Assembly (NCBI RefSeq): GCF_006538705.1
Contig: NZ_BJLP01000003.1
Location: 1-64,000, forward strand
Direction of reading: 5' to 3'
DNA from: Cellulomonas uda
Lineage (GTDB): Bacteria; Actinomycetota; Actinomycetes; Actinomycetales; Cellulomonadaceae
Length of the DNA: 64,000 nucleotides
Below, piece after piece: positions 1,282 through 42,613 of the stretch. How positions within the stretch are numbered: the first letter of the stretch is position 1; each line of letters begins with the position of its first letter. The translations under genes and the position numbers were made by a program. The notes beneath the pieces are model-generated. The model was not told the DNA's origin, did not search any database, and saw only the letters and a program-made list of their open reading frames with translations.

Positions 1282-2304
1282 GTGCCCGAGCTGCCCGCCG
1301 AACCACGGCGCCCCCAGAACGTGACCGACACCTCGTCCCCGAGCGCTCCCGCCGGGTCGGCGTTCGTGCGCCGCACCGACGCCGCGGGTGAGCCGCTGCG
1401 CCTGATGGCGGTGCACGCGCACCCGGACGACGAGTCGAGCAAGGGTGCGGCGACCACCGCACGGTACGCCGCCGAGGGCGTCGAGGTGCTCGTCGTGACG
1501 TGCACCGGCGGCGAGCGCGGCGACGTGCTCAACGAGCGCTACGGCGAGGTGCCGGGCGGCATCGAGGGCATGCGTGAGGTGCGCCGGCACGAGATGGCCG
1601 CGGCCGCGGCCGCGCTCGGTGTGCAGCAGCGCTGGCTCGGCTTCGTCGACTCGGGGCTGCCCGAGGGGGACCCGCTGCCGCCGCTGCCCGAGGGGTGCTT
1701 CGCGCTCGTGGGCCTCGAGGACGCGAGCGCGCCGCTGGTCGAGGTGGTGCGCGAGTTCCGGCCGCACGTGATGACGACGTACGACCCGACGGGTGGCTAC
1801 CCCCACCCCGACCACGTGATGTGCCACCGGGTCGCCGCCGAGGCGTTCGCGGCCGCGGGCGACCCCGAGCGCTACCGGGGCCACGGCGAGCCCTGGGCGC
1901 CGCTCAAGCTGTACTACAACCACGGTTTCTCGCTCGCGCGTCTGCGCGCGATGCACGAGGCGATCCTCGAGGCGGGCGGCGAGTCCCCGTTCGGGGACTG
2001 GATCGAGTCCCGCCAGGCGCGGGAGATCCCCGAGCGCGAGGTGACGACGCGCATCGAGTGCGCGGCGTACTTCGACCGGCGGGACGCGGCGCTGCGCGCC
2101 CACGCCACGCAGATCGACCCCGAGGGCTTCTTCTTCGCGGTCCCGCGCGAGGTCGAGCTCGCGCACTGGACGACCGAGGAGTACGAGCTCGCGGAGTCGC
2201 GCGTGCCGGTCACGCTCCCCGAGCACGACCTGTTCGCGGGGATCGCGGTGCAGCCGCTCGGCTCGCTCGCGCCGGCCGACGAGACGACGGGGACGGATCG
2301 ATGA
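1282..2304 (+). CDS. mca: Mycothiol S-conjugate amidase Mca
   Basis: A PIG-L-fold zinc amidase that cleaves mycothiol S-conjugates, releasing a mercapturic acid for export and glucosaminyl-inositol for recycling. The zinc motif HPDDE is at about residues 47-51, in LRLMAVHAHPDDESSKGAAT, which is typical of Mca rather than MshB; the second histidine motif GYPHPDH is at about 172-178. The start is uncertain. GTG 1282 follows a weak -10-like GATCAT by 6 nt (leaderless pattern); GTG 1321 would give a length closer to characterised Mca and the ATG at 1255 is also in frame. It begins a run with overlapping downstream genes. Confidence 0.93.
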   Translation: MPELPAEPRRPQNVTDTSSPSAPAGSAFVRRTDAAGEPLRLMAVHAHPDDESSKGAATTARYAAEGVEVLVVTCTGGERGDVLNERYGEVPGGIEGMREVRRHEMAAAAAALGVQQRWLGFVDSGLPEGDPLPPLPEGCFALVGLEDASAPLVEVVREFRPHVMTTYDPTGGYPHPDHVMCHRVAAEAFAAAGDPERYRGHGEPWAPLKLYYNHGFSLARLRAMHEAILEAGGESPFGDWIESRQAREIPEREVTTRIECAAYFDRRDAALRAHATQIDPEGFFFAVPREVELAHWTTEEYELAESRVPVTLPEHDLFAGIAVQPLGSLAPADETTGTDR

Positions 2305-2582
2305 ACGCGCTGGCGCTGGTCCTGGCCGCCACGCCCGCACCGAGCCCCAGCCCCACCGTCACGGCGGCCACCGGGGGCTCGCCGGGCTTCCTGGGCTTCG
2401 TGTTCACGTTCGGGCTCGCGGCGGTCGCGGTGCTGCTGTTCCTGTCCCTCACCCGCCACCTGCGGGTCGTCGACCGGCGCGCCAAGCAGCTCGAGGCCGA
2501 CGAGGCCGCCGAGGCCGAGGCGCAGGAGCGCGGTGCGGACGGCGCGAGCGAGCCGGACGACGCGACCGACGGCACGCGGTGA
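2301..2582 (+). CDS. Small single-pass membrane protein of unknown function
   Basis: A 93-residue protein whose ATG overlaps the mca stop (ATGA), implying translational coupling. It has a short Pro/Ser/Thr-rich N-terminus, one membrane helix (about residues 29-50, FLGFVFTFGLAAVAVLLFL), and a charged tail rich in Glu/Asp/Ala. Short proteins of this design are common right after mca in actinobacteria (recall). No function can be assigned; co-translation with mca is the only hint. Confidence 0.8.
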   Translation: MNALALVLAATPAPSPSPTVTAATGGSPGFLGFVFTFGLAAVAVLLFLSLTRHLRVVDRRAKQLEADEAAEAEAQERGADGASEPDDATDGTR

Positions 2583-3424
2583 GCGAGCGCCCCGAACCGC
2601 CGCGGCGGCCCGCGGTCCGTGTGACGATCGCCCAGGTCGCGGCGTCGGCGGACGCGGCGGCGAACGTCGTGGTCCTGCGTGACGCGTTCGCGCAGGCGCA
2701 CCACGTCCGGGCCGACGTGCTGGTGCTGCCCGAGTACGCCTCGGCGTTCGACCCGGGCGGCGTGGGCGCCGAGCACGCCCAGCCACTCGACGGCCCGTAC
2801 GTGACCACGCTGCGGGAGCGGGCGGCAGCCACGGGCGTCGCGGCGCTCGCGGGCGTGACGGTCCCGGGCGACGACGAGGACCCGCGCGCGGCGAACGTCG
2901 TCGTCGCGGTGGACGGCACGGGCGCGCTCGTCGGGACGTACCGCAAGGTGCACCTGTACGACGCGTTCGGCAGCCGCGAGTCCGACCGGCTGCGGCCGGG
3001 CCCGGCGGACGCGCCCCCGCTCGTCCTCGACGTCGCGGGCGTGCGGTTCGGCGTGCTGACGTGCTACGACCTGCGGTTCCCGGAGTCGGCCCGGCGGGTG
3101 GTGGACGCGGGTGCGGACGTGCTCGTCGTGCCCGCGGCGTGGGCGGACGGTGCGCTCAAGGCGATGCACTGGCGCACGCTCGCGACGGCGCGTGCGATCG
3201 AGAACACGGCCGCGGTCGTCGCGGTGGGCATGGCGGGCAAGGGCGTCGTCGGGCGCTCGCTCGTCGTGGGGCCGGACGGCGTGGTGGGCCTCGAGCTCGA
3301 CGACGAGCCGTCGATCCGCACGGTCGACCTCGACCCGGTCGAGCTGCGCGGCGTGCGCGAGGCGAACCCGTCGCTCGCCAACCGGCGGTACGCGGTGGTG
3401 CCGGCGGGTCAGCGCAGCGAGTAG
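2579..3424 (+). CDS. Carbon-nitrogen hydrolase (nitrilase superfamily)
   Basis: A 281-residue amidase-like hydrolase with the full Glu-Lys-Cys triad: E52 in LPEYAS, K124 in YRKVHLYD and C163 in LTCYDLRFPE. These motifs resemble the omega-amidase/Nit group, which hydrolyses deaminated glutathione or alpha-keto acid amides, but the substrate cannot be read from sequence. The GTG start overlaps the previous stop by 4 nt, so mca, the small membrane protein and this gene look like one transcript. The 3' end overlaps the convergent hemolysin III gene by 16 nt. Confidence 0.92.
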   Translation: MSERPEPPRRPAVRVTIAQVAASADAAANVVVLRDAFAQAHHVRADVLVLPEYASAFDPGGVGAEHAQPLDGPYVTTLRERAAATGVAALAGVTVPGDDEDPRAANVVVAVDGTGALVGTYRKVHLYDAFGSRESDRLRPGPADAPPLVLDVAGVRFGVLTCYDLRFPESARRVVDAGADVLVVPAAWADGALKAMHWRTLATARAIENTAAVVAVGMAGKGVVGRSLVVGPDGVVGLELDDEPSIRTVDLDPVELRGVREANPSLANRRYAVVPAGQRSE

Positions 3425-4110
3425 CTCGCGATCGACACGGCGATGTAGTGGCACGCGAAGCCGATGACGGTCAGCGCGTGGAAGATCTCGTGGAACCCGA
3501 AGTACCGCGGGCTGGGGTTGGGGCGCTTGGTGCCGTAGACGACCGCCCCCACGGTGTAGGCCAGGCCGCCGGCGGCGATGAGCCACAGGATCGCCGCGCC
3601 GCCCTCGCGGTAGAACTGCGGCAGGAACGCGACCGCGACCCATCCGAGGATCACGTACACCGGCACGTAGACCCATCGGGGTGCGGAGAGCCAGAACACG
3701 CGGGCGAGCAGCCCGACGAGCGCGCCGGCCCAGACGGCGATGAGCAGGTTCCGGGCGGTCGTGGCGGGCAGCAGGAGCACGGCCAGGGGCGTGTAGGTGC
3801 CCGCGATGATGAGGAAGATGTTGGTGTGGTCGAGGCGGCGCAGCACGCCCGCGACGCGCGGCGACCAGGTGCCGCGGTGGTAGACCGCGCTGGTGCCGAA
3901 CAGCATGACGGCCGACAGGCCGAAGACCGCGGTGGACCACCGCGCGGCGGGCGTGGGGGAGAGCGCGACGAGCACGATCGACGCGGCGAGCACGAACGGT
4001 GAGACGCCGGCGTGGATCCAGCCCCGCAGGAGCGGCTTGACGCTCGCGGCGACCTGCTCGACCGCGCGTACGACGCCCGAGGTGCCGCTGGGGGCGGGGG
4101 TGCTGGCCAT
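3409..4110 (-). CDS. Hemolysin III family (YqfA/TrhA-like) seven-helix membrane protein
   Basis: A 233-residue protein with about seven hydrophobic helices. It has the conserved Ser/His/Asp pattern of the HlyIII/PAQR superfamily: GTSAVYHRG, LDHTNIFLIIAGTYTP and HEIFHALTVIGFACHY. PAQR-type proteins are proposed metal-dependent membrane hydrolases; bacterial members are linked to membrane lipid homeostasis. The gene is monocistronic, overlaps the nitrilase gene tail to tail, and has a striking palindrome just upstream, suggesting specific regulation. Confidence 0.93.
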   Translation of the reverse strand: MASTPAPSGTSGVVRAVEQVAASVKPLLRGWIHAGVSPFVLAASIVLVALSPTPAARWSTAVFGLSAVMLFGTSAVYHRGTWSPRVAGVLRRLDHTNIFLIIAGTYTPLAVLLLPATTARNLLIAVWAGALVGLLARVFWLSAPRWVYVPVYVILGWVAVAFLPQFYREGGAAILWLIAAGGLAYTVGAVVYGTKRPNPSPRYFGFHEIFHALTVIGFACHYIAVSIASYSLR

Positions 4111-4134
4111 GGTGCCTCGCGTTCGTCGTCGGGA

Positions 4135-4167
4135 ACCTACGACCCCGTAGGTTACGGCACCGTAGGT
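4135..4167. promoter_or_regulatory. Palindromic operator with a third half-site, upstream of hemolysin III
   Basis: ACCTACG-ACCC-CGTAGGT (4135-4152) is a perfect 7-bp inverted repeat. A third half-site CGTAGGT recurs at 4161-4167, 15 bp from the second, forming an approximate 15-bp direct repeat. It lies 25 bp from the hemolysin III start, between that gene and the divergent uppS. TetR-family binding is plausible but no regulator is encoded nearby. Confidence 0.6.
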
Positions 4168-4306
4168 AGCGGTGTCGACCGCCTGCGCCGCACGGACGAT
4201 CCTGCCTCACGCACATCGGCGGACGAGTACGGTTGACCGCGCCGGCACACCACGCCGCACCCGCCGGGCGCGAGCCCGGCCGGTACCGATCGCGACAGGA
4301 GAGCGC

Positions 4307-5068
4307 GTGCGCCTGCCCCATCCGCTGTACGGGCTGTACGAGCGCCGCCTCGCCGCGTCGCTGCCCTCGGACCGGATGCCGCGGCACGTCGGCGTGATCC
4401 TCGACGGCAACCGCCGCTGGGCGCGGTCCACCGGCAAGTCCACGCACGGCGGGTACCGCGCGGGCGCGGACAAGATCAGCGAGGTGCTCGCCTGGAGCGA
4501 GGACGTCGGCGTCGAGGTCGTCACGCTGTGGATGCTGTCCACCGACAACCTCAACCGCCCCGCCGACGAGCTCGAGGGCCTGCTCGTCGTGATCGACGAC
4601 GCGGTGCGCGAGCTCGCCGCGACCCGCCGCTGGCGCGTGCAAGCGGTCGGCTCGCTCGAGCTGCTGCCCGAGCACACGGCCCAGGCGCTGCGCGACGCGC
4701 AGGAGGCGACGCGCGACGTCGTCGGGCTGCACGTCAACGTGGCCGTGGGCTACGGGGGCCGCCGCGAGATCGCCGACGCGGTGCGCGCCTACCTGCGGGA
4801 CGCGGCCGACAAGGGCCTCGGGCTCGACGAGATGGCGGAGTCGTTCGACGTCGAGCACATCGCCGCGCACCTGTACACCAAAGGGCAGCCGGACCCGGAC
4901 CTCGTCATCCGCACCTCGGGCGAGCAGCGGCTCGGCGGTTTCCTGCTGTGGCAGTCGGCGCACTCGGAGTTCTACTTCTGCGAGGCGTACTGGCCGGACT
5001 TCCGGCGCGTGGACTTCCTGCGCGCGGTGCGCGACTACGCCGTCCGGGAACGGCGGCTCGGGCGCTGA
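4307..5068 (+). CDS. uppS: Isoprenyl transferase (cis-prenyl diphosphate synthase)
   Basis: A 253-residue cis-prenyltransferase that condenses isopentenyl diphosphate into the long-chain polyprenyl diphosphate carrier for cell-wall synthesis. Family motifs: HVGVILDGNRRWAR (27-40, catalytic D33), HGGYRAGADK, and near the end RTSGEQRLGGFLLWQ and FYFCEAYWPDF. GTG 4307 is chosen because AGGAGAG lies 3-9 nt upstream and the protein then starts just before the family core. Actinobacteria often have two paralogues (short E,Z-farnesyl and long-chain); length and motifs do not separate them. Confidence 0.94.
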   Translation: MRLPHPLYGLYERRLAASLPSDRMPRHVGVILDGNRRWARSTGKSTHGGYRAGADKISEVLAWSEDVGVEVVTLWMLSTDNLNRPADELEGLLVVIDDAVRELAATRRWRVQAVGSLELLPEHTAQALRDAQEATRDVVGLHVNVAVGYGGRREIADAVRAYLRDAADKGLGLDEMAESFDVEHIAAHLYTKGQPDPDLVIRTSGEQRLGGFLLWQSAHSEFYFCEAYWPDFRRVDFLRAVRDYAVRERRLGR

Positions 5069-5419
5069 CGCGCGCTCGCGGTTGCCCCGGACGACCCGCC
5101 ACGAGCGGACCTCCCGCGGCGCCGTCACCCCGCCGGGTGGACGCCCGGCGAGGTGCAGGTGAACTTCGTGTTTCGGACGGCGCGTCGAGCCTGCGACCCG
5201 CGCGCGGCCGGGGTTAGCGTCACCACAAGGACGTCGCCCCGGCGTCCCCGGGAGGCCTAGCCCATGGAGCATCCGCTCCGGGAGGAGGGCCGGACCCGGC
5301 CCTTCGCAGGGTCGGACCGCCCTCGTCCCGCCGCCGCGAGCCGGCCCCCGCACCCCCGCGTGCGGGACACCGGAGCGCGACGCCTTCTGCGGCGCACGTA
5401 GCGCCGGAGGGAGCACGCC
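5069..5419 (+). other. Leader region before the PhoH-like gene
   Basis: This 351-bp stretch has no known gene. A TTAGCGT box near 5213 may be a -10, giving a leader of about 200 nt. The leader contains compact hairpins: GGAGC-ATCC-GCTCC after the ATG at 5264, then GGGCCG-GACC-CGGCCC. It also carries a 45-codon open frame with a ribosome-binding site (separate entry). Confidence 0.5.
5264..5401 (+). CDS. Possible 45-residue upstream ORF in the phoH leader
   Basis: The ATG is preceded by GGAGG about 9 nt upstream, and the frame runs to TAG, 18 bp before the phoH GTG. The peptide is Arg/Pro-rich (starts MEHPLREEGR, ends RRLLRRT), without recognisable domain or membrane segment. Codon use is not clearly coding, and the overlapping hairpins suggest the region could act as RNA instead. 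It may be a regulatory leader ORF or chance. Confidence 0.25.
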   Translation: MEHPLREEGRTRPFAGSDRPRPAAASRPPHPRVRDTGARRLLRRT

Positions 5420-32680: not shown

Positions 32681-34224
32681 AGCTCGCGCTCGTCGCGAAC
32701 GGTCTGCGGCGCAGCGTCTGGCAGGTCGTGGGGTTCGCGTTCGCCGTGCTGTACGGGCTGGGCATCCTCGCGATCGTCGTCGCGGGGATGGTCGCGGTCG
32801 GCACGCAGGACGTCGCGCTGCAGCGGACCGTCACCGTGCTGGTCGGCTCCGCGCTGGTGATCGGCTGGTGGTTCATCCCGCTGCTCGCGTTCGGCGTCGA
32901 CGCCACGCTCGACCCGGAGCGGTTCGCGACGTTCGCGATCCCGCGGCGCGTGCTCGTCGTCGGGCTCGCGGTCGCGGCGCTCGTGGGCGTGCCGGGTGTG
33001 CTCAGCGCGGTCGCGGCGCTGTCGACCAGCCTCGCGTGGTTCCGGCACCCGGGTGCGCTCCTCGTCGGGGTCGTCGCCGCGGTGCTGGGCCTGGCGGTCG
33101 CGGTCGTCGGCGGGCGCGCGGTGGTCGCGCTCGCGGCGCCGCTGGTCGCGCGCCGCCGCGCGCGTGAGCTGACGGCGGTCGTGACGCTGCTGCTCGTCGT
33201 GAGCATCGGGCCGACGCTCGGCACGCTCACCAACGGCCGTGAGATCAGCCGCGAGACGTTCGACGACCTGGTCGGCGTGCTCGCATGGACGCCGTTCGGT
33301 GCCGCGTGGGCGGCGCCCGCCGACGTCGCCGCGGGGGACCCGGCGCTCGCCGTGGCCCGGCTCGCGATCGCGGGTGTGACGCTCGCGATCGCGCTGCGGC
33401 TCTGGGAGGGCGCGCTCGCGCGCACGCTCGTGCAGCCCGTGCACGCCGGCTCCGGCGGCGCACGGCCCGCGGGGCTCGGGGTGCTCAGCCGCGTGCCCGC
33501 GACGCCGCTCGGCGCGGTCGTCGGCCGCTGCCTCGTCTACTGGTTCCGCGACCCGCGCTACGCGATGGCCCTCGCGATCGTGCCGTTCACGCCCGTGATC
33601 CTGTGGGTCGTCGGGCGTGGCGGCAACGCGGACCTGGTGCTGGCCTCGGGTGTGCTCGCGGCGTTCGTGTGCGGGTGGGGCGTCAGCTCCGACGTGTCGT
33701 ACGACGGCTCCGCGTTCTGGATGCACGTGAGCGCGGGCGTGCGCGGCGTGGTCGACCGGCTGGGGCGCGTCGTCGCGTCGGGCATCATCGCGGTCCCGCT
33801 CGTCACGACGATCGTCGTCGTGACCGCCGCGGTCACGGACCGCCTCGACGCGGTGCCCGCGCTGCTCGGCGCCGCCGCGGGCGTCATGCTCACGTCCTAC
33901 GGCGGCGCGAGCATCGTCTCGGCGCTGTTCGTGCAGCCCGTGCAGCAGCCGGGCGAGAACCCGTTCCAGACCCGCCAGGGCGCGTCGATGGCCACGGTGC
34001 TCTCGCAGACCGCCGGGTGGGCGCTCGTGCTCGTCGCCGCGTCGCCGCCCGCGCTGCTCGCGTGGTTCGCGGTGTCCCGCTCGTCGGCCGCGCTCGGCTG
34101 GGCGACGCTCGCCCTGGGGGTCGTGCTCGGCGCGGTGTGGCTGACGGTCGGGGTGCGCGTCGGTGGGCGGCTGCTCGACCGCCGTGCGCCCGTCCTGCTG
34201 CAGCGCGTCATCGCGTTCGAGTAG
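32656..34224 (+). CDS. ABC transporter permease, multi-helix
   Basis: A 522-residue integral membrane protein with about 12 hydrophobic stretches and no large soluble domain. The GTG at 32656 is preceded by GGGGGAGGGG and overlaps the ATPase gene, so the two are translationally coupled. It partners the upstream ATPase, probably as an exporter; the cargo is unknown. Confidence 0.85.
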
Positions 34225-34254
34225 CGCCCGGTCGGGCGGGCGCGGGTACCCCCG

Positions 34255-34260
34255 TAGACT
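34255..34260 (+). promoter_or_regulatory. -10 box (TAGACT) 8 nt before the ychF GTG
   Basis: TAGACT followed by TGCCGCCC and GTG gives the leaderless layout for ychF. Confidence 0.55.
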
Positions 34261-34268
34261 TGCCGCCC

Positions 34269-35342
34269 GTGGCACTCACCATCGGCATCGTCGGCCTGCC
34301 CAACGTCGGCAAGTCCACCCTCTTCAACGCCCTGACCCGCGCGCAGGTGCTCGCCGCGAACTATCCGTTCGCGACGATCGAGCCCAACGTCGGCGTCGTG
34401 CCGCTCCCGGACGAGCGCCTCACGAAGCTCGCCGAGGTGTTCGGCTCGGAGCGGATCGTGCCCGCCACGGTGTCGTTCGTCGACATCGCGGGCATCGTCA
34501 AGGGCGCGTCCGAGGGTGAGGGCCTGGGCAACAAGTTCCTCGCGAACATCCGCGAGGCCGACGCGATCTGCCAGGTCACGCGCGCGTTCGCGGACCCCGA
34601 CGTCGTGCACGTCTCCGGTCAGGTGAACCCGAAGGACGACATCGAGATCATCTCGACCGAGCTGATCCTCGCGGACCTGCAGACGCTCGAGAACGCGATC
34701 CCGCGGCTCGAGAAGGAGGTCCGCGGCAAGAAGACGGACCCCGAGGTGCTCGCCGCGGCGCAGCGCGCCAAGGAGGTCCTCGAGACCGGCACCACGCTGT
34801 TCGCCGCGGGTCTGCGCGACGACGAGCACGTGCGCGCGCTGCAGCTCATGACCTCGAAGCCGTTCATCTACGTCTTCAACACCGACGACGAGGGCCTCGC
34901 GGACACCGCGATGCAGGACGAGCTGCGCGCGCTCGTCGCGCCCGCCGACGCGATCTTCCTCGACGCGAAGTTCGAGTCGGAGCTCGTCGAGCTCGACGAG
35001 GCCGAGGCGCGCGAGATGCTCGAGGCGAACGGCCAGGACGAGGCGGGCCTCGACCAGCTCGCCCGTGTCGGGTTCCACACGCTCGGCCTGCAGACCTACC
35101 TCACGGCCGGCCCCAAGGAGGCCCGCGCCTGGACGATCCGCCAGGGCTGGACCGCCCCGCAGGCGGCCGGCGTGATCCACACGGACTTCCAGAAGGGCTT
35201 CATCAAGGCCGAGGTCATCTCGTTCGAGGACCTCGTCGAGGCCGGCTCCGTCGCGGCGGCTCGCTCGGCGGGCAAGGCCCGTGTCGAGGGCAAGGACTAC
35301 GTCATGGTCGACGGCGACGTCGTGGAGTTCCGCCACAGTTAG
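34269..35342 (+). CDS. ychF: YchF/Obg-like ATPase with C-terminus replaced by an integrated element
   Basis: A 357-residue P-loop protein of the YchF (OLA1) family, a ribosome-associated ATPase. G1 GLPNVGKST, G3 DIAGIVKGAS and the NTDDE specificity motif are intact, with a C-terminal TGS domain. Family proteins end in a hydrophobic FNV (E. coli NFLFNV); this one ends VEFRHS. The missing tail FRFNV-stop is found at 40603-40622, next to a second AGTTCCGC. So integration swapped the last codons (FNV to HS) without breaking the frame. Leaderless-type start at GTG 34269. Confidence 0.96.
   Translation: MALTIGIVGLPNVGKSTLFNALTRAQVLAANYPFATIEPNVGVVPLPDERLTKLAEVFGSERIVPATVSFVDIAGIVKGASEGEGLGNKFLANIREADAICQVTRAFADPDVVHVSGQVNPKDDIEIISTELILADLQTLENAIPRLEKEVRGKKTDPEVLAAAQRAKEVLETGTTLFAAGLRDDEHVRALQLMTSKPFIYVFNTDDEGLADTAMQDELRALVAPADAIFLDAKFESELVELDEAEAREMLEANGQDEAGLDQLARVGFHTLGLQTYLTAGPKEARAWTIRQGWTAPQAAGVIHTDFQKGFIKAEVISFEDLVEAGSVAAARSAGKARVEGKDYVMVDGDVVEFRHS
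35326..35333. other. Left attachment core (attL)
   Basis: AGTTCCGC within the last codons of ychF (GTGGAGTTCCGC). Upstream is host sequence and downstream is element sequence starting CACAGTTAG, which supplies the new stop codon. Confidence 0.85.
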
Positions 35343-35430
35343 CCATCAGGGCCTCCACTGACCGGGCTGGGAAGCGCGCGCTGGAGCGGTTGGCTCGTCG
35401 ATACGGCCCTGCAAGATCGGCTCGCTGTTC

Positions 35431-35436
35431 TAGCCT
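35431..35436 (+). promoter_or_regulatory. -10 box (TAGCCT) 7 nt before the DUF5343 start
   Basis: TAGCCT-GTGCCGC-ATG sits inside the element, so the DUF5343-HEPN pair has its own leaderless-type promoter and need not depend on ychF transcription. Confidence 0.6.
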
Positions 35437-35443
35437 GTGCCGC

Positions 35444-36076
35444 ATGGCGCTGCCGTCCGCATACCTCACGTCATTCAAGAACACCCCGGACATCTTCCGT
35501 GCGATCCAGGGCGCTCAGGCTCCCGAGCGGTTCACTCAGAAGTTCTTGGAGGGCCTCGGCTTCCCCAGCAGCAATGACCGCACCATGATCAACGTCCTTA
35601 AGGCGCTGGGCTTCCTGGACGACTCTGGCGTGCCCCAGCGCCGGTACCACGAGTTCTTGGACCAGACGCGCTCGGCTGTCGTGCTCGCCGAGGGCATGCG
35701 CGCGGCGTATGCGGATCTGTTCAAGGTCAACAAGAACGCCCACACCATGACGACCGCCGAAGTCAAGAACAAGATGAAGACCCTCTCCGAGGGTGCCTTC
35801 ACCGAACGTGTGCTGTCGCAGATGGCCGGTACGTTCACGACCCTCGCGAAGGAGGCCGACTTCAGCGCGGCGCCGGTTGATCGCGGTGGCGACGCAGACC
35901 CAGGCGACACGGACGACACGTCGACAGAGGAGCCTGTCCGCGACGAGCCCGTCGCTCGCGGCGGTGGACTGCGGTTCGGCTCGCTTGCCTACAACATCAA
36001 CATCGTCCTGCCCGAGTCTCGCGATCCGGCCGTGTACGACGCACTCTTCCGGGCCTTGCGGGAACACCTGCAGTGA
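35444..36076 (+). CDS. DUF5343 protein, partner of the HEPN gene
   Basis: A 210-residue protein. The N-terminal 140 residues look like a DUF5343-type helical domain (YLTSFKNTPDIFRAIQ, GFPSSNDRTMINVLKALGFLD, RYHEFLDQTRSA). A disordered acidic linker follows (about 142-175), then a short C-terminal module GSLAYNINIVLPESRDPAVYDALFRALREHL-like in composition. The domain is of unknown function. The stop overlaps the HEPN GTG by 4 nt, so the two are produced together. More GCT, GAT and TTG codons than host genes. Confidence 0.8.
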   Translation: MALPSAYLTSFKNTPDIFRAIQGAQAPERFTQKFLEGLGFPSSNDRTMINVLKALGFLDDSGVPQRRYHEFLDQTRSAVVLAEGMRAAYADLFKVNKNAHTMTTAEVKNKMKTLSEGAFTERVLSQMAGTFTTLAKEADFSAAPVDRGGDADPGDTDDTSTEEPVRDEPVARGGGLRFGSLAYNINIVLPESRDPAVYDALFRALREHLQ

Positions 36077-36663
36077 AGCGACCACTCGTCGACTCGGCGA
36101 TCTACGAGTTCGTCTTTCGCGGCCAACTCACGGAGGTCGCGCTCGACGCGGCGGGCCGGGTGCGCCGGTTCCAGGACCTTGACTCCGTCGACGAGATCGC
36201 AGCTGCGCTCTCCTTGGAGCTCCTGGACGCCGAGGAAGTCACCGCCTCCCGCGGTATGGCTGTCGTATACACGGCGATTGCGGCCTTTGAGATGTCTGTG
36301 CGCCGCTACGTGAAGCGCGTCCTTGTGGACGCCTACGGCGAAGACTGGTGGGAGAAGGGCGTCTCCCAGAACATCCGTAGGTTCGCTGAGGCTCGGCGCG
36401 AAGATGAGGAGAAGACCCGGTGGCACGGTGTCCGGGGTGAGGACTTGCTGAGCTACACCGAGCTGGGTCACCTGCCTCAGATCATCCAGCAGAACTGGCA
36501 GCAATTCGAGCCGATGGTGCGCCGCATTGACTGGGCCACGGCCATCTTCGGGACGCTCGAGCGCTCGCGGAACGTGATTATGCACAGTGGGGTGCTGGCG
36601 ATGCCCGACGTCGAGCGCGTTGGCATGAACATGCGCGACTGGATCAAGCAGGTCGGTGTCTAG
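36073..36663 (+). CDS. HEPN-domain protein (Swt1-HEPN-like) with RX4H motif
   Basis: A 196-residue, mostly helical protein. The C-terminal part has RNVIMH (R166 to H171) inside LERSRNVIMHSG, the RX4-6H active site of HEPN ribonucleases. The N-terminal half (residues 1-60) is a separate segment with a beta-rich start. HEPN enzymes cut RNA in toxin-antitoxin, abortive infection and CRISPR effector systems. The gene overlaps the DUF5343 stop (GTGA). Role as toxin with DUF5343 as antitoxin or sensor is inference. Confidence 0.78.
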   Translation: MKRPLVDSAIYEFVFRGQLTEVALDAAGRVRRFQDLDSVDEIAAALSLELLDAEEVTASRGMAVVYTAIAAFEMSVRRYVKRVLVDAYGEDWWEKGVSQNIRRFAEARREDEEKTRWHGVRGEDLLSYTELGHLPQIIQQNWQQFEPMVRRIDWATAIFGTLERSRNVIMHSGVLAMPDVERVGMNMRDWIKQVGV

Positions 36664-37003
36664 GTCCACATGCGGTCCGGTCGGGCGGTTGGCCCCTGGA
36701 AGCCCGGCGCCTCGGCCCGGCTCCGAGGGGTAGGTCCTTCCCAGGGGCGTGAGCACGCCGGATCACCGTTATCGGTCGACATCTCGATTTGACGCTAGTG
36801 TTCGTAGTGCCGGGCGCGAGCCGGGCTTAGCGGGGCCGGAACACCCCGCCGGACCTACAGCGTCGAGCACTTCCTCTCCGATGAGAGGGCGTAGGGCATA
36901 GCGGTCCACCGCCTACCCGCCCCGTTCCGGGGGCGCTGGCCTCCAGGTCGAGCTGAGGCGTGATGTAGGGGAGCCAGGACCAGTACCTCCAGTGGAGGTT
37001 GCT
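36664..37003 (+). other. Promoter/leader region of the decayed phage operon
   Basis: No gene in 340 bp. TTGACG (36789-36794) is followed by TAGTGT (36796-36801) and TAGTGC (36805-36810), promoter-like and slightly repetitive. Downstream are hairpins: GCGGGG-(8 nt)-CCCCGC at 36830-36849, CCTCTC-CGAT-GAGAGG, and a CCTCGG/CCGAGG pair further upstream. From memory, similar leaders precede small ORF strings in actinobacterial ICEs and prophages. Confidence 0.4.
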
Positions 37004-37221
37004 GTGCCTGACCCGGTTCTCTCCGCCCGTGGGCGTCTCGCCTACGCGTCTCGCCAAGGTGGCGACCCCGACCAGCGTGATGCCGCGGGCCGCATCTGAT
37101 CGCTGCCAAGTTGGAGCGGCACATCCAGCGCGCTCTGGCAGCTGCCCCGCCCCTCACGGATGAGCAGCGCGAGCGGTTGGCCGCTCTGCTGCGCGCACCG
37201 AAGGGCGGTGCGCGCGCATGA
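37004..37221 (+). pseudogene. Frameshifted small phage/ICE protein gene
   Basis: GTG 37004 has GGAGG upstream and reads 31 codons (SARGRLAYASRQGGDPDQRD) to a TGA at 37097. In the next frame, similarity-type sequence continues: HLIAAKLERHIQRAL then PPLTDEQRERLAALLR, ending at 37221 and overlapping the following ATG. The combined order matches a short protein I recall from actinobacterial integrative elements (Arg-rich start, then APPLTDEQRxRLAxLLR). The shift is +1 or -2 at the GC run near 37085-37092. Real decay or sequencing error are both possible. Confidence 0.6.
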
Positions 37222-37610
37222 GCCGAAAGAGGAGTCGCCGCCCCGGCGAGGGAGCGGCGACCAGCAGCTTGGCATCTGCTACCCGAACGGTACCGTCCAC
37301 AAGGCCGGGCGCCGCGTTCGTGCCGCCCGCCTTGCAGTGTCCGGACTGCGGCGCGATCGCCGTGGGGTCGCAGATGGCCCACGCCGACACCTGCCCGCTG
37401 AACCGCGGCGTGAACCGGGTGCTGGACGAGGACCGCGAGTGGTTCGAGGCGCACCCCGAGGTGTCCGTCCGTATCCGGCCGGTGACGCCTCCCGAGGTCG
37501 CGGACCTCCTGGCCGCTGGCGCCGCCCGCCCCACGGGCGACGTCATCGTGCTGAACCTGGCGCCCGGCCTCCGGATGCGGCGGTTCACGTTCGCCGGGGG
37601 TGCCCGATGA
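37218..37610 (+). CDS. Phage/ICE-associated protein with Cys/His zinc-ribbon-like motif
   Basis: A 130-residue protein, starting at an ATG overlapping the preceding stop. After a basic, disordered N-terminus it has CPDCGA...H.DTCPLN (about residues 41-62), a probable metal site, then a short domain with VSVRIRPVTPPEVADLL. Small proteins with this Cys pattern recur before replication genes in actinobacterial elements (recall). Function unknown. It overlaps the downstream primase fragment by 4 nt. Confidence 0.6.
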   Translation: MSRKRSRRPGEGAATSSLASATRTVPSTRPGAAFVPPALQCPDCGAIAVGSQMAHADTCPLNRGVNRVLDEDREWFEAHPEVSVRIRPVTPPEVADLLAAGAARPTGDVIVLNLAPGLRMRRFTFAGGAR

Positions 37611-38038
37611 GCGCGCAGCTGCTGGACATCGCTACCGCGGCACGGGCCGGGGCCAAGACGTGGAAGCGCGGGCGGACCACCTGGGACGAGGTCTGCTCCT
37701 GGGCTGCCGAGCCGCGCGACGGCGGCAAGGACGGTCCGGGCTACGTGCTCGGCAAGCTGTCGTCGCCGCGCCGCACGAAGGAGACCATCGTGTCTCGCGG
37801 CGTGCTGACGCTCGACGCCGATCACCTGACGCCCGCGACCCGGGATGCCCTGCTCGTGCGGGTGCGCGCGCTGGGGTGCGCGGTCGTGGTGCACAGCACC
37901 TACCGCAGCACGCCGCAGGCACCGCGGCTCCGGCTGCTCGTGCTGGCGTCGCGACCGGTCACGCCGGAGGAGTACCGGGCGCTCGTCCGGTGGCTCATGG
38001 AGCAGCTGGGCGCAGACCACCCTGGACCTCATGCGTGA
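37607..38038 (+). pseudogene. Truncated phage primase/primase-polymerase-like gene
   Basis: 143 codons resembling the N-terminal part of phage/plasmid primase proteins: an N-terminal helical segment, then RGVLTLDADHL, CAVVVHSTYRSTPQAPRLRLLVLASRPVTPEEY and ALVRWLMEQLG, the pattern of a primase-polymerase AEP core. Full-length relatives are several hundred residues longer. After residue about 135 the frame runs into unrelated sequence and stops, because the DNA is joined at about 38010 to the 3' end of a capsid gene. Confidence 0.65.
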
Positions 38039-38321
38039 GGACGGCGCCACGGGTGGGTTCCTGATGAACTCCGCCGCTGCCGACACCGTGTTCGGGCCGG
38101 GCATCCGCCGGGTGCCGTCGCTGGCCGTGCCCGCGGGGACGGCTCTCCTGGCCGACTGGTCGCAGGTGCGTCTCCGTGTCCGCGAGGACGCCCAGACGCT
38201 CGCCTTCCACCAGAGCGGCGAGCTGTTCAAGTACAACCTCGTGCAGCTGCGGACCGAGGGCCGCTACGGCATCGAGATCCGCAGGCCCCAGGCGTTCGCG
38301 GTCGTGGACCTGACCGCCTGA
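38013..38321 (+). pseudogene. C-terminal fragment of a HK97-type major capsid protein
   Basis: About 100 codons (an ATG lies at 38031) reading TTLDLMREDGATGGFL, then IRRVPSLAVPAGTALLADW, VREDAQTLAFHQSGELF and RTEGRYGIEIRRPQAFAVV. This is the usual end of HK97-fold capsid proteins (E-loop remnant, then P-domain strands ending RPQAF.VV). The N-terminal 200 or more residues are missing and the fragment follows the primase fragment out of frame. Confidence 0.65.
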
Positions 38322-38422
38322 CCCTGCGGTGCACCGCGCCCGCCCTGTCTTCCTCTCCGGGGCGAGCGCGGGAGCGGGCCGAAGGGCTTGGTGGCACCGG
38401 AGGCCTGCGCCGCACCGCTCAC

Positions 38423-38469
38423 CGTTCGCCCCCGTTCCCCGTCCTGCTGCCGGGGAGCGGGGGCGAACG
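38423..38469 (+). terminator. Strong hairpin after the capsid fragment
   Basis: A 19-bp stem (38423-38441 with 38451-38469, one G-T wobble) and a 9-nt loop. It is probably the native terminator of the lost phage structural operon, kept along with the capsid 3' end. Confidence 0.7.
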
Positions 38470-38506
38470 AGTGCCAGAAGACGATCACGGTGTCGCAGGG
38501 CGCTCG

Positions 38507-38512
38507 TAGACT
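38507..38512 (+). promoter_or_regulatory. -10 box (TAGACT) 7 nt before the DUF4145 start
   Basis: TAGACT-CCGCCGC-ATG, the leaderless layout, placed just after the phage terminator; the gene is therefore an independent cargo unit. Confidence 0.6.
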
Positions 38513-38519
38513 CCGCCGC

Positions 38520-39197
38520 ATGGCGAACCTCAACGCGGACATCCGCACCGTTCAGTCGCCGGTGAACCAGTACGGACTGGACGATTCCACGTTCTGGTTG
38601 GCGGCCACCTGCCCGCACTGCGGTCCGTCGTCGTTCCTTATGGTGGCCGCGACGGTCTCGTCGGGGTCGCCCCAGAAGCCCAACGGACATGTGCAGTACC
38701 TCCGGTGTGTCGCGTGCCGTCGCGGCGCTGTGATGAACAACGGAGTCCTGTCGCCAGGCACGACGCCCCTTCCGGCTGTCGACGGGTGCCCGGACGACGT
38801 CGACGTTGCGTGGACGGAGGTCCGTTCCGACCTCTCCGCGGGCGCCGCGACCTCGGCGGTCATGATGTGCCGGAAGCTGCTCTTCCACATTGCCGTGGAG
38901 CAGGGACTCGCCCCCGAGAACGACAAGGGGCGCGCACCGACGTTCGAGCAGTGCCTCGCCCAGCTCCGCGAGAAGGGTCTCCTGACGCCCCCGCTGGAGC
39001 CGTGGGTTCAGCACATCAAGGACGTCGGCAACAAGGCCAACCATGATCTCTCGGTCATCACGCCCGAGGACGCGCTGCGGGTGGCGACCTTCACCAGGCA
39101 GCTGTTGGTTACCACGTATGAGATGCCCTTCCGAATGCGGGAGGCGCTGGGCGAGCCGGAGGAGCCTCTCGACGGCGCAACCACCATCTCCGTGTAG
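38520..39197 (+). CDS. DUF4145 protein (HEPN-like) with N-terminal zinc ribbon
   Basis: A 225-residue protein. The N-terminus has CPHCGPSS and CVACRRG, a probable zinc ribbon. From about residue 110 a DUF4145-type helical domain follows: SAVMMCRKLLFHIAVEQG and HIKDVGNKANHD, the conserved GNxANH end. DUF4145 is related to HEPN folds and often occurs alone or in restriction/defence proteins; activity is unknown. It ends 14 bp from the convergent integrase. Start chosen at the ATG behind a TAGACT box. Confidence 0.8.
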   Translation: MANLNADIRTVQSPVNQYGLDDSTFWLAATCPHCGPSSFLMVAATVSSGSPQKPNGHVQYLRCVACRRGAVMNNGVLSPGTTPLPAVDGCPDDVDVAWTEVRSDLSAGAATSAVMMCRKLLFHIAVEQGLAPENDKGRAPTFEQCLAQLREKGLLTPPLEPWVQHIKDVGNKANHDLSVITPEDALRVATFTRQLLVTTYEMPFRMREALGEPEEPLDGATTISV

Positions 39198-39211
39198 CTG
39201 TCACTCGGGTG

Positions 39212-40564
39212 CTATCCGGCCCGCCAGTCAAGGATGACGGTGGCGGGATCGAGGTTGCGCGAGCCGCGCCGCCCTGGAAGCAGCGTCACTCTGACGAGGG
39301 CGTCGATGACCTGGCGACGGATGGCGAGCGGTGCGGCATCGAATGCGGCAACGGGGTTGTCCGCGCTGAGCACAGCGTCAGGCGCAGAGTTACCCATCAC
39401 CTGCGCCTGCCGCGACCGCACCTCCTGAAGGCGTGCCTGTGTCTTCTCGGTCGCGGACCGGAGGCGACGGCCGTCGATAAGGCCGTCGTCGTAGTCGGCC
39501 TCGAACTTCTTCAGGCGCAGCCGGAGGTCCTTCTGCTCGTCCGCGAGTTGCGCGAGTTCGGCCTCATCCGCCGGTGCCACGAGGAGGCCCCGGAGGTCCG
39601 GCATTGCGAGGCGGCCACGGATCACGCCAACCACGTACTCGTCTATCGGTCGGGCGCTCCGGTAGTGGCACGCGTTCCTGCAGGTGTACCGGTTGAGCCC
39701 GTTGCCCATGCCTGAACTCGACCGGACCCTCAAGCCGCACGAGCAGTAGTAGAGGCCCGAGCCAAGGTGCTTGCGAGCGGTGTCCTCGCCGCGCGTCTTC
39801 CGTCGAGGGTCGTCAAGGCGCGACTGCACGGCGGCGAACTGCGCCTCGCTGACCAAGGGGAGCCAGGTGCCCGTGCCGACATCCTGGCCCTTGTAGATGG
39901 ACCGGCCCGCGTAGCGGGCGTTGCGCAGGATGGAGGCCACGGAGGACGAACTCCACTGTCCGCCGCGGCGCGTGACGACGCCTTCCGCCGAGAGATCAGC
40001 CGCGATGCCTTTGAGGGTGTCGCCTGCGGTGAAGCGGTCGAAGATCCGCCTCACGATGGCTGCCTCGTCCTCGATGACGTCGCCCGCAAGCGTGTACCCC
40101 GTTGGCCTGATCCCCTTCGGCGGGCGCCCCTTCTCGGCGCGCTGCAGCTGCGCCCGGCTTTGGCGCTCGCCCTTCCTTCTGACCTCGAACCGGGCGAGCG
40201 CGGCGAACATGGTCGCGCGGAACTCGCCGTCCGCCGTAGTCAGGTCGATCTCGCCGTCCACGGTGATGACGCTGAGGCCGTGGTCGATCAGGGTGTTCAG
40301 GTCTCGCGTCGCACGCAGGAGGCGGTCGATGTCAACCGCGACGACCACGTCGACCTTGCCCGCCGTCGCGTCGGCGAGGAGCTTTGCCCACGCCGTGCCG
40401 TCACCTCGCGGCTTGGACGCCGTGATGTCGTCGTCCACGTATGCACCGGCGTCCACCCAGCCGCGCGCTGCGAGCAGTGCACGTGTGCGCTCGTCCTGGC
40501 GGTCCACGCCTTCAAGGTCAGACCTGCTCTGCCGGAGGTATCTCGCCGCGCGACGTGTGCTCAC
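39212..40564 (-). CDS. int: Large serine recombinase (integrase)
   Basis: A 450-residue site-specific recombinase. The resolvase domain (about 5-145) begins YLRQSRSDLEGVDRQ, with nucleophile S13, and includes DVVVAVDIDRLLRATRD and ITVDGEIDLTT. The recombinase domain follows (PPKGIRPTGYTL, then SSSSVASILRNARYAG), then a zinc ribbon (YYCSCGLRVR...CRNACHYR) and a coiled coil (about 345-395). Start is GTG. It lies 38 bp inside the right attachment core, the usual position for a serine integrase, and should recombine the ychF 3' end. Confidence 0.95.
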   Translation of the reverse strand: MSTRRAARYLRQSRSDLEGVDRQDERTRALLAARGWVDAGAYVDDDITASKPRGDGTAWAKLLADATAGKVDVVVAVDIDRLLRATRDLNTLIDHGLSVITVDGEIDLTTADGEFRATMFAALARFEVRRKGERQSRAQLQRAEKGRPPKGIRPTGYTLAGDVIEDEAAIVRRIFDRFTAGDTLKGIAADLSAEGVVTRRGGQWSSSSVASILRNARYAGRSIYKGQDVGTGTWLPLVSEAQFAAVQSRLDDPRRKTRGEDTARKHLGSGLYYCSCGLRVRSSSGMGNGLNRYTCRNACHYRSARPIDEYVVGVIRGRLAMPDLRGLLVAPADEAELAQLADEQKDLRLRLKKFEADYDDGLIDGRRLRSATEKTQARLQEVRSRQAQVMGNSAPDAVLSADNPVAAFDAAPLAIRRQVIDALVRVTLLPGRRGSRNLDPATVILDWRAG

Positions 40565-40602
40565 GAGCGAACAGTACGCCTATATGAGACTAGATGCGGT
40601 GA

Positions 40603-40622
40603 AGTTCCGCTTCAACGTCTGA
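40603..40622. other. Right attachment core (attR) with displaced ychF 3' end
   Basis: AGTTCCGC (40603-40610) followed by TTCAACGTCTGA, reading in frame as FRFNV-stop, the canonical YchF C-terminus. It marks where host DNA resumes; the empty site would read VEFRFNV. Confidence 0.85.
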
Positions 40623-40702
40623 GCAAGGCGGTCGCGCGGCAGGCCGGTTGCCGGCAGGGCCGGCATCTGGGCGTGCGGGGAACCCGGTCGGGCCGCCGGG
40701 CG

Positions 40703-41535
40703 TCAGTTCGTGCGCTGCTCGTCGCCGACGGGGTCGTCGGCGCGCTCGTCGGGCGCCGGTGTCGCGGACGCGGGCGTGCCGCCCAGCCGCCGGGTCGTGA
40801 GGAAGCCGACGACGAGGGCGACGACCCCGACCCATGCCGCGACGGAGACGCCCTGCGTGAGTGCCTGGCGGGCGGCGTCCGCGACGAACGCCGTGGCCGG
40901 GTCCTGCGAGAGCGGTGCGATGAGGGCACCCGCGGAGTGGGACACGGCGTCGACGAGGCCGCCGATGCCCGGGTCGGCCGCGATCTGGTCGCTCAGGCGG
41001 GACTCGGTGCTCGCGCGCAGGGTCGTGAACAGCGCGGTGCCGAGGATGGCGATGCCGAGCGCGGAGCCGACCTGCCAGGCGGTGGACTGCGTGGACGACG
41101 CCTGGCCGGACTTCTCGACCGGGATGTCGGCCAGGATCAGCTGCGTGAGCTGTGCGGTCGCGAAGCCCACGCCCATGCCGTAGACGAACAGCGGCACGCC
41201 CGTGACCCACGTCGACGAGCCGGGTCGGATGAGCAGCGCCAGGGACGCGAGGGCCGCGATCTCGAGGCCGAGGCCGAGCCGGACGATCTGGACCGGCGAC
41301 ATGCGCTGGGACAGCGAGTGCACGCCGCCGCTGGCGAGGAACGAGCTGATGGCGAGGGGCAGGAGCGCGAGGCCCGCGTCCAGCGCGTCCATGCCGCGCA
41401 CGTTCTGGAACCTCAGCGGCAGGGACAGGATCAGGCCGGACTCGCCGAGCGAGACGGTGAGGGCGGTGATGTTGCCGTTGGCGAACGAGCGGGTGCGGAA
41501 CAGGGCGACGTCGAGACTTCCAGCCCGCGCTCCTC
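40703..41535 (-). pseudogene. MFS (DHA2-type) transporter remnant, 3' half only
   Basis: The frame from about 41520 reads SLDVALFRTRSFANGNITAL, SGLILSLPLRFQNVRGMDAL, continuing through about seven helices to a normal end (GTPASATPAPDERADD tail). This is the second half of a 14-helix DHA2 drug transporter; the first 250 or so residues are absent. Upstream, in another frame at 41519-41619, TYVKPAMTFDGLVARLEERG looks like the start of an unrelated small protein (DUF302-like by eye). Two genes appear to be fused by deletion. The remnant may be expressed but is unlikely to transport. Confidence 0.7.
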
Positions 41536-41645
41536 GAGCCGGGCGACGAGTCCGTCGAACGTCATCGCGGGCTTGACGTAAGTCAGCGTGCCCCGCGGTC
41601 GTATGTCCCTGCGAGGCAAGTGGACGCCCCGGACGGCAGAGAAAA

Positions 41646-41682
41646 ATCCCCCAAGTGCGCTTCTGCGAGAGGCGTGGGGGAT
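41646..41682 (-). terminator. Hairpin with T-run, minus orientation
   Basis: ATCCCCCA (41646-41653) pairs with TGGGGGAT (41675-41682). On the minus strand the stem is followed by ATTTTTCT, an intrinsic-terminator-like run. No minus-strand gene now lies upstream of it, so it may belong to a lost gene. Confidence 0.5.
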
Positions 41683-41767
41683 CTAGTGCAGCGAGGCTGG
41701 CACGGGCGGCCAGCCCTGCGGGACCGGTGCGCGGCTATCGTCGGTGGGTGACCGTCGGAGGAGCGAG

Positions 41768-42130
41768 ATGAGTGGCGATCGGGTGTTCCGGATGACGTTC
41801 GCGAGCATCTACCCGCTGTACGTGACGAAAGTCGAGCGCAAGGGGCGCACGGTCGAGGAGCTGCGCACGGTTCTCACCTGGCTCACGGGCTACGACGAGG
41901 CAGCCCTGCACCGGGCCGTCGACTCCGGGGTGGACCTCGCGACGTTCTTCGCGCTGGCACCCGCGATGAACCCGGACGCGCGCCTCATCACGGGCGTGGT
42001 CTGCGGGCACCGGGTCGAGGAGATCGCCGACCCGCTCATGCAGCAGGTTCGCTGGATGGACAAGCTCGTCGACGAGCTGGCGCGCGGCAAGCGGCTGACG
42101 TCGGTCCTGCGCACGGAGAAGGTCGGCTGA
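41768..42130 (+). CDS. DUF2200 family protein
   Basis: A 120-residue protein matching DUF2200 by pattern: VFRMTFASIYPLYVTKVERKG, RTVEELRTVLTWLTGYD and a helical C-terminus with DPLMQQVRWMDKLVDELARGK. The family is of unknown function and common in bacteria as a single gene. ATG 41768 has GGAGGAG upstream. Confidence 0.88.
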   Translation: MSGDRVFRMTFASIYPLYVTKVERKGRTVEELRTVLTWLTGYDEAALHRAVDSGVDLATFFALAPAMNPDARLITGVVCGHRVEEIADPLMQQVRWMDKLVDELARGKRLTSVLRTEKVG

Positions 42131-42178
42131 CGTGTGTCCGCGGGCGCCCCGCCAGGTCGGCCGGGGCTCCCGTGGTGG

Positions 42179-42613
42179 TCAGCCCGCCGCGCGCTGGAGC
42201 AGGTCCGCGACCCGCGCCTCGACGTCGGGTGTCAGGGCGGTGATCGCGAACGTCGTCGCCCACATCGGGCCGTCGTCGAGGGCGGCGGGGTCGTTGAACC
42301 CGAGCGTCCCGTAGCGCGCCTTGAACTTGGACGCGGGCTGGTAGAACGCGAGCACCTTGCCGCCCTTGGCGTACGCGGGCATCCCGTACCAGGTGCGTGC
42401 GGTGAGCTCCGGCGCGTTCTCCCGGACGAGCCGGTGGATCGCCTCGGCGATCGCACGGTCGTCGTCGGGGAGCTCGGCGATCTTCGCGAGCACCTCTGCC
42501 TCGGCCTGCTCGGGGGTCATCTTCTTCGCGGCGCGCGCCTCCTTGGCGCGTTCCTTCACCGCGGCTTTCTCCTCGTCGGTGAAGCCCGTGCCCTGCTCGT
42601 CGCGTCCGGCCAT
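42179..42613 (-). CDS. DUF1801 domain protein (YdhG-like)
   Basis: A 144-residue protein. An N-terminal charged helix (Lys/Glu/Ala-rich, residues 1-45) precedes a DUF1801 domain: AIAEAIHRLVRENAPELTAR, TWYGMPAYAKGGKVLAFY and LGFNDPAALDDG. Members resemble frataxin-like iron chaperones such as YdhG/Fra. It has a GGGAGG ribosome-binding site and stands alone, convergent with DUF2200. Confidence 0.85.
   Translation of the reverse strand: MAGRDEQGTGFTDEEKAAVKERAKEARAAKKMTPEQAEAEVLAKIAELPDDDRAIAEAIHRLVRENAPELTARTWYGMPAYAKGGKVLAFYQPASKFKARYGTLGFNDPAALDDGPMWATTFAITALTPDVEARVADLLQRAAG

Follow-up and report, generated by a model that had tools for sequence, protein, structure and literature searches.

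The window analysed here, the first 64,000 nt of contig NZ_BJLP01000003.1 from Cellulomonas uda, very probably carries a 5.3-kb serine-integrase element inserted in the last codons of ychF, where it replaces the C-terminal tail of YchF. Gene ychF codes for a universally conserved P-loop ATPase; in the window its product shows a match to MMR_HSR1 besides that to PF06071 in a Pfam search. The insertion and its empty counterpart, the clustering of the integrases, the dyad seen in the pooled attachment sites and an excess of synonymous changes in the long tails are all apparent from sequence comparison. The gene, the integrase and the left and right attachment sites (attL and attR) are placed as follows.

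34269-35342, forward strand: ychF (PF06071, E=1.8e-37), its frame closed by element DNA and its end being VEFRHS.
35322-35350, forward strand: attL, with the putative exact crossover GT at 35322-35323 followed rightward by what would be the element's VEFR codons and tail arm, CACAGTTAG (His-Ser-stop), assigned from the pooled dyad centre of 15 element attachment sites (attP) and from the nearest relative, G033.
39212-40564, reverse strand: large serine integrase of the ychF-linked group, 450 aa, open frame (PF00239 E=1.4e-21, PF07508 E=7.2e-21, phrog_95 E=6.7e-88).
40570-40622, forward strand: attR, formed by the attP left arm, the putative crossover GT at 40599-40600 and the displaced host tail, TGAAGTTCCGC-TTCAACGTC-TGA (FRFNV-stop), the latter assigned from one match against 0.00 expected and from G033.

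Reading of 34269-35342 confirmed the VEFRHS end of ychF that had been reported in an earlier, sequence-only reading of this DNA, and the expected FRFNV-stop does lie downstream as an orphan, 5,277 bp away and beside the intact large serine integrase. A search with the 24-mer from the ychF end, GTGGAGTTCCGCTTCAACGTCTGA, gave a single match in the window at up to 3 mismatches (40599-40622, 1 mismatch), against 0.00 expected by chance and with none of 100 shuffles containing one; a chance repeat was thus rejected as the source of the displaced tail. The motif AGTTCCGC, previously noted at both ends, was found at 35326-35333 and 40603-40610, with the integrase 38 bp inside the right copy (start codon at 40564). 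The common stretch is longer than noted, since GTGGAGTTCCGC (35322-35333) and GTGAAGTTCCGC (40599-40610), spaced by 5,277 bp, are identical at 11 of 12 positions. The integrase contains a Resolvase catalytic domain followed by a Recombinase domain, as in large serine integrases, and no tyrosine integrase was found among the open reading frames (ORFs) of the element searched against Pfam and PHROG. No tRNA that could be the target was found in the window, and an Rfam search of 33500-42500 produced no match.

The uninterrupted site was found in G033, whose YchF is 99 % identical to that of the window and ends FRFNV. There, ychF has the sequence GTCGAGTTCCGCTTCAACGTC-TAG and, from 72 bp past its stop codon, the DNA of G033 aligns with the right flank of the window (from 40714, 84 % over 814 bp); an uninterrupted FRFNV followed by right-flank DNA had been proposed as the mark of strains lacking the element. 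Together with the chance estimate and with homologous integrases that adjoin the same tail in further genomes, this empty site supports the earlier claim that a serine-integrase element occupies the 3′ end of ychF and that both its ends can be read. If HS were instead the native ending of YchF in this species, the downstream FRFNV would be coincidental. Tails of the form HG..KK/KR do occur in G239 and G603 with no element seen in the 5 and 38 kb examined, respectively; however, FRFNV is the ending in 32 of the 36 same-genus genomes, the own genome included (26/30, plus 6/6 in a second batch), the displaced tail has a chance expectation of 0.00 and G033 shows the site uninterrupted. Relatives natively ending HS, named earlier as the observation that would speak against an insertion, are therefore not what the genus holds, and we give virtually no credence to a native HS tail, which was rejected on the same-genus endings and G033. 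The four genomes with other endings are that of the window (HS), G006 (HGGTSGAGKK), G021 (FRFNKS) and G026 (FRFAV).

Two observations concern the surroundings of the site. At window positions 41515-41522, synteny with the right flank of G033 jumps ca. 3 kb (L036, from 2212 to 5261), and the major facilitator superfamily gene at 40703-41401 (reverse strand) matches only positions 232-346 of the 347 of its family, as if the lineage of the window had lost DNA here or G033 had gained some by insertion. Additionally, three genomes (G020, G024 and G005; loci L034, L035 and L042) contain extra FNV-like tails downstream of a ychF still ending FRFNV; this site may thus also serve elements of another kind, which restore the tail.

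A search with the DNA pattern for the altered end, DGDVVEFRH, identified FRH-type tails in 14 of 396 genomes of the order, spread over 12 of 109 genera, and in 6 of 394 genomes of the class, two of them already counted, giving 18 distinct genomes. A second FNV tail was present downstream of ychF in 13 of the 18, at distances from ca. 3 kb (G590) to ca. 41 kb (G167); a recount allowing no more than 1 mismatch per 20 nt also gave 13, all of them on the strand of ychF and none on the other, in stretches of 5-70 kb per genome totalling 773 kb. An integrase of the family is situated downstream of ychF in 10 of the 18. Viral contig G423 contains a whole 15.6-kb element with both ends present, and viral contig G422, whose sequence record contains no match to ychF, has an uninserted attP at a distance of ca. 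500 bp from the integrase. Certain genomes weigh against insertion as the source of every such tail: in the stretches examined, no second tail was found in G006, G359, G268, G239 and G603 (with contig ends in G359 and G239) and no family integrase downstream of ychF in 8 of the 18. These include G268, whose family integrase is ca. 11 kb upstream of the gene, and G104, G651 and G590, without one in their stretches. The tails of G239 and G603 may be native, or ancient and long domesticated. In these two genomes, with tails HGLAASGKR (L317) and HGGAASTGKK (L336), respectively, the usual attP arm DNA is missing.

FNV tails can also occur in series, with two good copies and a degenerate one in G142 and two copies in G104, an arrangement suggestive of att-bounded cassettes that could be moved in trans. 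The three copies of G142 (L198, reverse strand, 11279, 12081 and 12853) are ca. 0.8 kb apart, the middle one being degenerate, and a Uma2-type gene sits between two of them, in what appears as a tandem series of small att-bounded units. Tyrosine integrases were present in all 12 genomes searched and, among the matches listed, only that of G012 directly adjoins ychF, its domain lying ca. 120 bp past the gene (L045, G012:C286). DNA similar to that following ychF in G012 is found in G018 and also behind the displaced tail of G246, which suggests a second, tyrosine-integrase family at the ychF site.

The integrases associated with ychF cluster together. In a midpoint-rooted tree of 46 sequences, kept from 118 rows by thinning those more than 70 % identical with preference for ychF rows, the 17 rows labelled ychF from evidence at their att sites fell in one group of 18 (Shimodaira-Hasegawa-like approximate likelihood ratio test support, 96). 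The ychF label changed twice on this tree, against a mean of 13.9 for shuffled labels and with 0 of 500 shuffles as low; the labels were fixed before the tree, and those of some rows are not independent of ychF, since L325-L329 and L340 were included for lying near an FRH-type ychF and L321 and L282 came from the DNA pattern search. The eighteenth row, L085 from Kocuria soli, was labelled as other in the run; it carries FNV-tail copies, one of them with a typical attP arm, and is thus probably no exception to the grouping. An FNV tail is situated at most 250 bp upstream of the start of 8 of 126 integrases. The closest relative of the window integrase, L202 (66 % identity), is from a 48.6-kb viral contig and has the tail within 250 bp upstream of its start. 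Named relatives are from actinobacteria, such as Curtobacterium, Cryobacterium and Frigoribacterium, and no close integrase was found in a named phage, the best identity in the phage collection being 38 %.

The position of the crossover was examined in attP sites reconstructed for 14 elements from the left half of attR and the right half of attL, plus the intact attP of G422, by scoring symmetry at distances 10-26 from every possible centre and pooling over the 15 sites, some of which are related to each other. The pooled symmetry had one peak, between bases 1 and 2 of GTGGAGTTCCGC, with 133 pairs, the next best centre having 76; the maximum averaged 78 in shuffles, and 0 of 2000 were as high. 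Because the pooled symmetry peaks there, the crossover is probably between G and T of the V352 codon, ca. 10 bp to the left of the boundary drawn earlier, in which case the element would supply its own V-E-F-R codons plus the new tail, GTGGAGTTCCGC at attL would be element DNA and GTGAAGTTCCGC at attR would be host DNA, possibly drifted after it ceased to code. Large serine integrases use simple att sites with a short common core and an attP of about 50 bp with dyad arms. The short core is found in the att sites of the window; the attP dyad is clear in the pool of 15 sites, with the window site having 8 of 17 pairs at that centre.

The sequence-only reading had located the crossover inside AGTTCCGC, between TTCCGC and CAC, with the element starting at CACAGTTAG. 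Its two readable ends and the presence of AGTTCCGC at both of them hold, but the pooled dyad favours V352 over this boundary. Several data nonetheless fit the earlier boundary or detract from that at V352: the two ends have identical copies of AGTTCCGC; the codon most usual in hosts, GAG, is retained at attL, and attR has AAG; the window site shows 8 of 17 pairs at the pooled centre and 10 at another, while G308, G651 and G590 show only 3-5 at the former; for only 9 of the 15 sites is the pooled peak also the best individual centre; a test on third codon positions went in the same direction as the pooled centre without reaching significance (p=0.09), a result compatible with a crossover inside AGTTCCGC; and the VEFR codons are less variable, with a similar slope, in empty sites too. 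An inverted-repeat score with a smaller offset range gave no excess (15 sites, p 0.10-0.98) and was superseded by the centre scan. We consider the earlier boundary unlikely, since the pooled symmetry has a single centre ca. 10 bp further left, which is the best one for the nine sites mentioned, including the intact attP (13/17 pairs), and since the FRFAV elements of G026 and G106, from different families, share GAA TTT CGT to the right of that centre. In these two elements, GAA TTT CGT and the DNA that follows are common across both families, whereas the upstream ychF DNA differs.

The 5,277-bp integrative element was very probably inserted at the 3′ terminus of ychF by the large serine integrase that it encodes. 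In the proposed course of events, the integrase would pair attB, made up of the last ychF codons, with an attP of roughly 54 bp with inverted-repeat arms, and strand exchange would take place at the GT of codon V352. The right half of attP would bring its own V-E-F-R codons, then a replacement tail and a stop codon, so that the host F-N-V codons would be pushed to the far end and YchF would be left intact except for its last residues. The window element has the shortest tail type, His-Ser-stop, with most of its relatives (15/21) showing longer, Lys-ended tails and one more ending in Arg. The exact crossover, any present mobility of the element and a role for the tail in keeping YchF working are inferred.

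The 21 tails read, from the 18 genomes, IMG/VR contigs L338 and G423 and Curtobacterium sp. ZW137, comprise HS in four cases, HSATTK in two and 15 others, including HGGTSGAGKK, HGATTAAKK, HGGTSGSGAKK, HGITSAAQGKK and HAPTSGSNKK. Among the 17 longer than HS, 11 end KK, one KR, two SK, two TK and one KS; hence, 16 have a Lys or Arg end (15 and 1, respectively). In five pairs of related elements, disjoint and picked by hand, 13 of the 17 changes in the tails were synonymous and 4 nonsynonymous, the expected synonymous share being 27 % (p=2.7e-5), and past the stop codon most positions differ in four of the five. Besides the small size of this test, two results temper its reading as selection on the tail: the pair G246/G268 remains similar beyond the stop codon, and the 38 ychF codons preceding the tail, which are certainly coding, show ca. 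53 synonymous to 67 nonsynonymous changes in the same pairs. The tails thus look, by these counts, either more constrained or more recently shared than the end of the host gene.

The new tails could also result from passive read-through of the attP arm bound by the integrase, without selection as protein, given that their first 16-17 nt coincide with the attP right arm, and so could be conserved for binding, that the HS-type tail stops inside the arm and that the test above rests on few, hand-picked pairs. Nevertheless, most long tails extend 11-17 nt past the arm and stay in frame at different lengths (27, 30 and 33 nt) and with different Lys codons; these features, along with the mainly synonymous changes, the loss of similarity after the stop in four of five pairs and the Lys or Arg end of 16 of 17, make passive read-through improbable in our view. 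As to the tails FRFAV (G026, G106) and FRFSI (G383), they keep a hydrophobic F-x-V/I end, and Lys-ended and F-x-V/I tails could be two ways of leaving YchF usable after the loss of F-N-V. YchF regulates the translation of leaderless mRNAs, and the text consulted of that report contains nothing on its last residues (PMC8138138). In a broader and quite improbable joint reading, ychF elements would install a selected Lys-ended C-terminus that alters YchF function to their own benefit; the altered YchF might, for example, act at the ribosome, in leaderless-mRNA translation or in the stress response, speculative as this is; and, just as doubtfully, the 3′ end of ychF would be both docking site and regulatory target for a cassette-chromosome-like family of defence islands.

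Between its ends, the window element contains the following other genes.

35444-36076, forward strand: PDC-M34A-like candidate anti-phage defence gene (DUF5343; PF17278 E=2.5e-42, PADLOC PDC-M34A E=2e-78).
36073-36663, forward strand: PDC-M34B-like candidate defence gene (Swt1-like HEPN; PF18731 E=2.7e-11, PADLOC PDC-M34B E=2.8e-74).
37218-37610, forward strand: small ORF with a sub-cutoff Pfam match only (E=0.064) and no PHROG match.
37607-38038, forward strand: N-terminal fragment of a phage-type primase-helicase (phrog_256 E=3.9e-21, profile positions 6-151 of 798).
38031-38321, forward strand: C-terminal fragment of a major capsid protein (PF05065 E=5.8e-6; phrog_10 positions 557-637 of 752).
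38520-39197, forward strand: DUF4145 protein (PF13643 E=1.9e-10, phrog_1305 E=2.9e-17).

The primase and capsid fragments abut as though a deletion had joined them, and the whole resembles a degraded phage-satellite-like element that lost its middle and carries the PDC-M34 pair. Larger phage-type gene sets occur among the three relatives searched: capsid and primase in G246, primase and an excisionase-like gene in G290, and terminase, primase and an excisionase-like gene in G423. The complete element of G423 also has a second, invertase-like serine recombinase (L321:8421-9167). PADLOC gave at least one match in each of the five elements tested, with 2/7 ORFs in the window, 1/2 in G290 (PDC-M03A), 3/3 in G104 (type I restriction-modification), 2/4 in G651 (AbiD and a PD-T4-6-like kinase) and 1/1 in G590 (methyltransferase); these proportions are not an unbiased rate of defence matches, because only selected ORFs of the last four elements were submitted, those of G104, G651 and G590 with their Pfam matches in view.

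These results support the existence of a group of large serine integrases specific to ychF, with elements that change the C-terminus of YchF. In the sequence-only reading, ychF was not considered a well-known integration site. This holds for its 3′ end, for which no report was found in the literature searched, although a survey table could list it; the only ychF site encountered there is a different one, on the 5′ side of the gene, where prophages of Streptococcus pneumoniae are known to integrate. That prophage, located between dnaN and ychF, also affects ychF but is upstream of the gene, alters its expression and not the protein, and is flanked by 14-bp direct repeats, according to the sections of the reports available to us (PMC6375853, PMC8637289). 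A survey of large serine recombinases, seen in its main text, describes distantly related enzymes sharing one target gene for other genes, and neither ychF nor DUF933 nor GTPase is mentioned in that text (PMC10083194). With its predicted shared target in a near-universal gene, the ychF integrase group could provide new integration tools for actinobacteria, and the 3′ end of ychF emerges as a place where elements carrying defence genes dock. The elements also provide a natural test of the role of the C-terminus in YchF, an ATPase linked to ribosomes and stress; with about twenty sequenced hosts or elements bearing a swapped tail, whether F-N-V matters becomes directly testable.

The nearest model is that of the staphylococcal and enterococcal cassette chromosomes (SCC and ECC), which, in the parts of the source consulted, resemble the ychF elements in that large serine recombinases insert them at the 3′ terminus of a conserved gene, in the dyad symmetry of the att sites (here that of the pooled set), in the multiple attR copies of some members (16 of 32 ECCs) and in their variable cargo (PMC6222049). 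They differ in that SCC/ECC insert at the 3′ end of rlmH, whereas the target here is ychF, and employ a ccrA/ccrB pair, whereas the window element has one serine recombinase among the ORFs searched. Unlike SCC/ECC, some ychF elements possess genes of phage-satellite type (primase, capsid or terminase, excisionase). The replacement of the host protein tail by a different peptide in ychF elements may be a further difference. The phiRv1-type and other mycobacterial candidate phage-inducible chromosomal islands (PICIs), which use serine integrases, are likewise small and contain an integrase plus a capsid gene, some of them with replication genes, and have a different target site, as described in the portion of PMC10654092 consulted. 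Compared with a capsid-encoding PICI and its intact genes, the window element retains only fragments of primase and capsid genes, with larger sets being found in the elements of G246 and G423.

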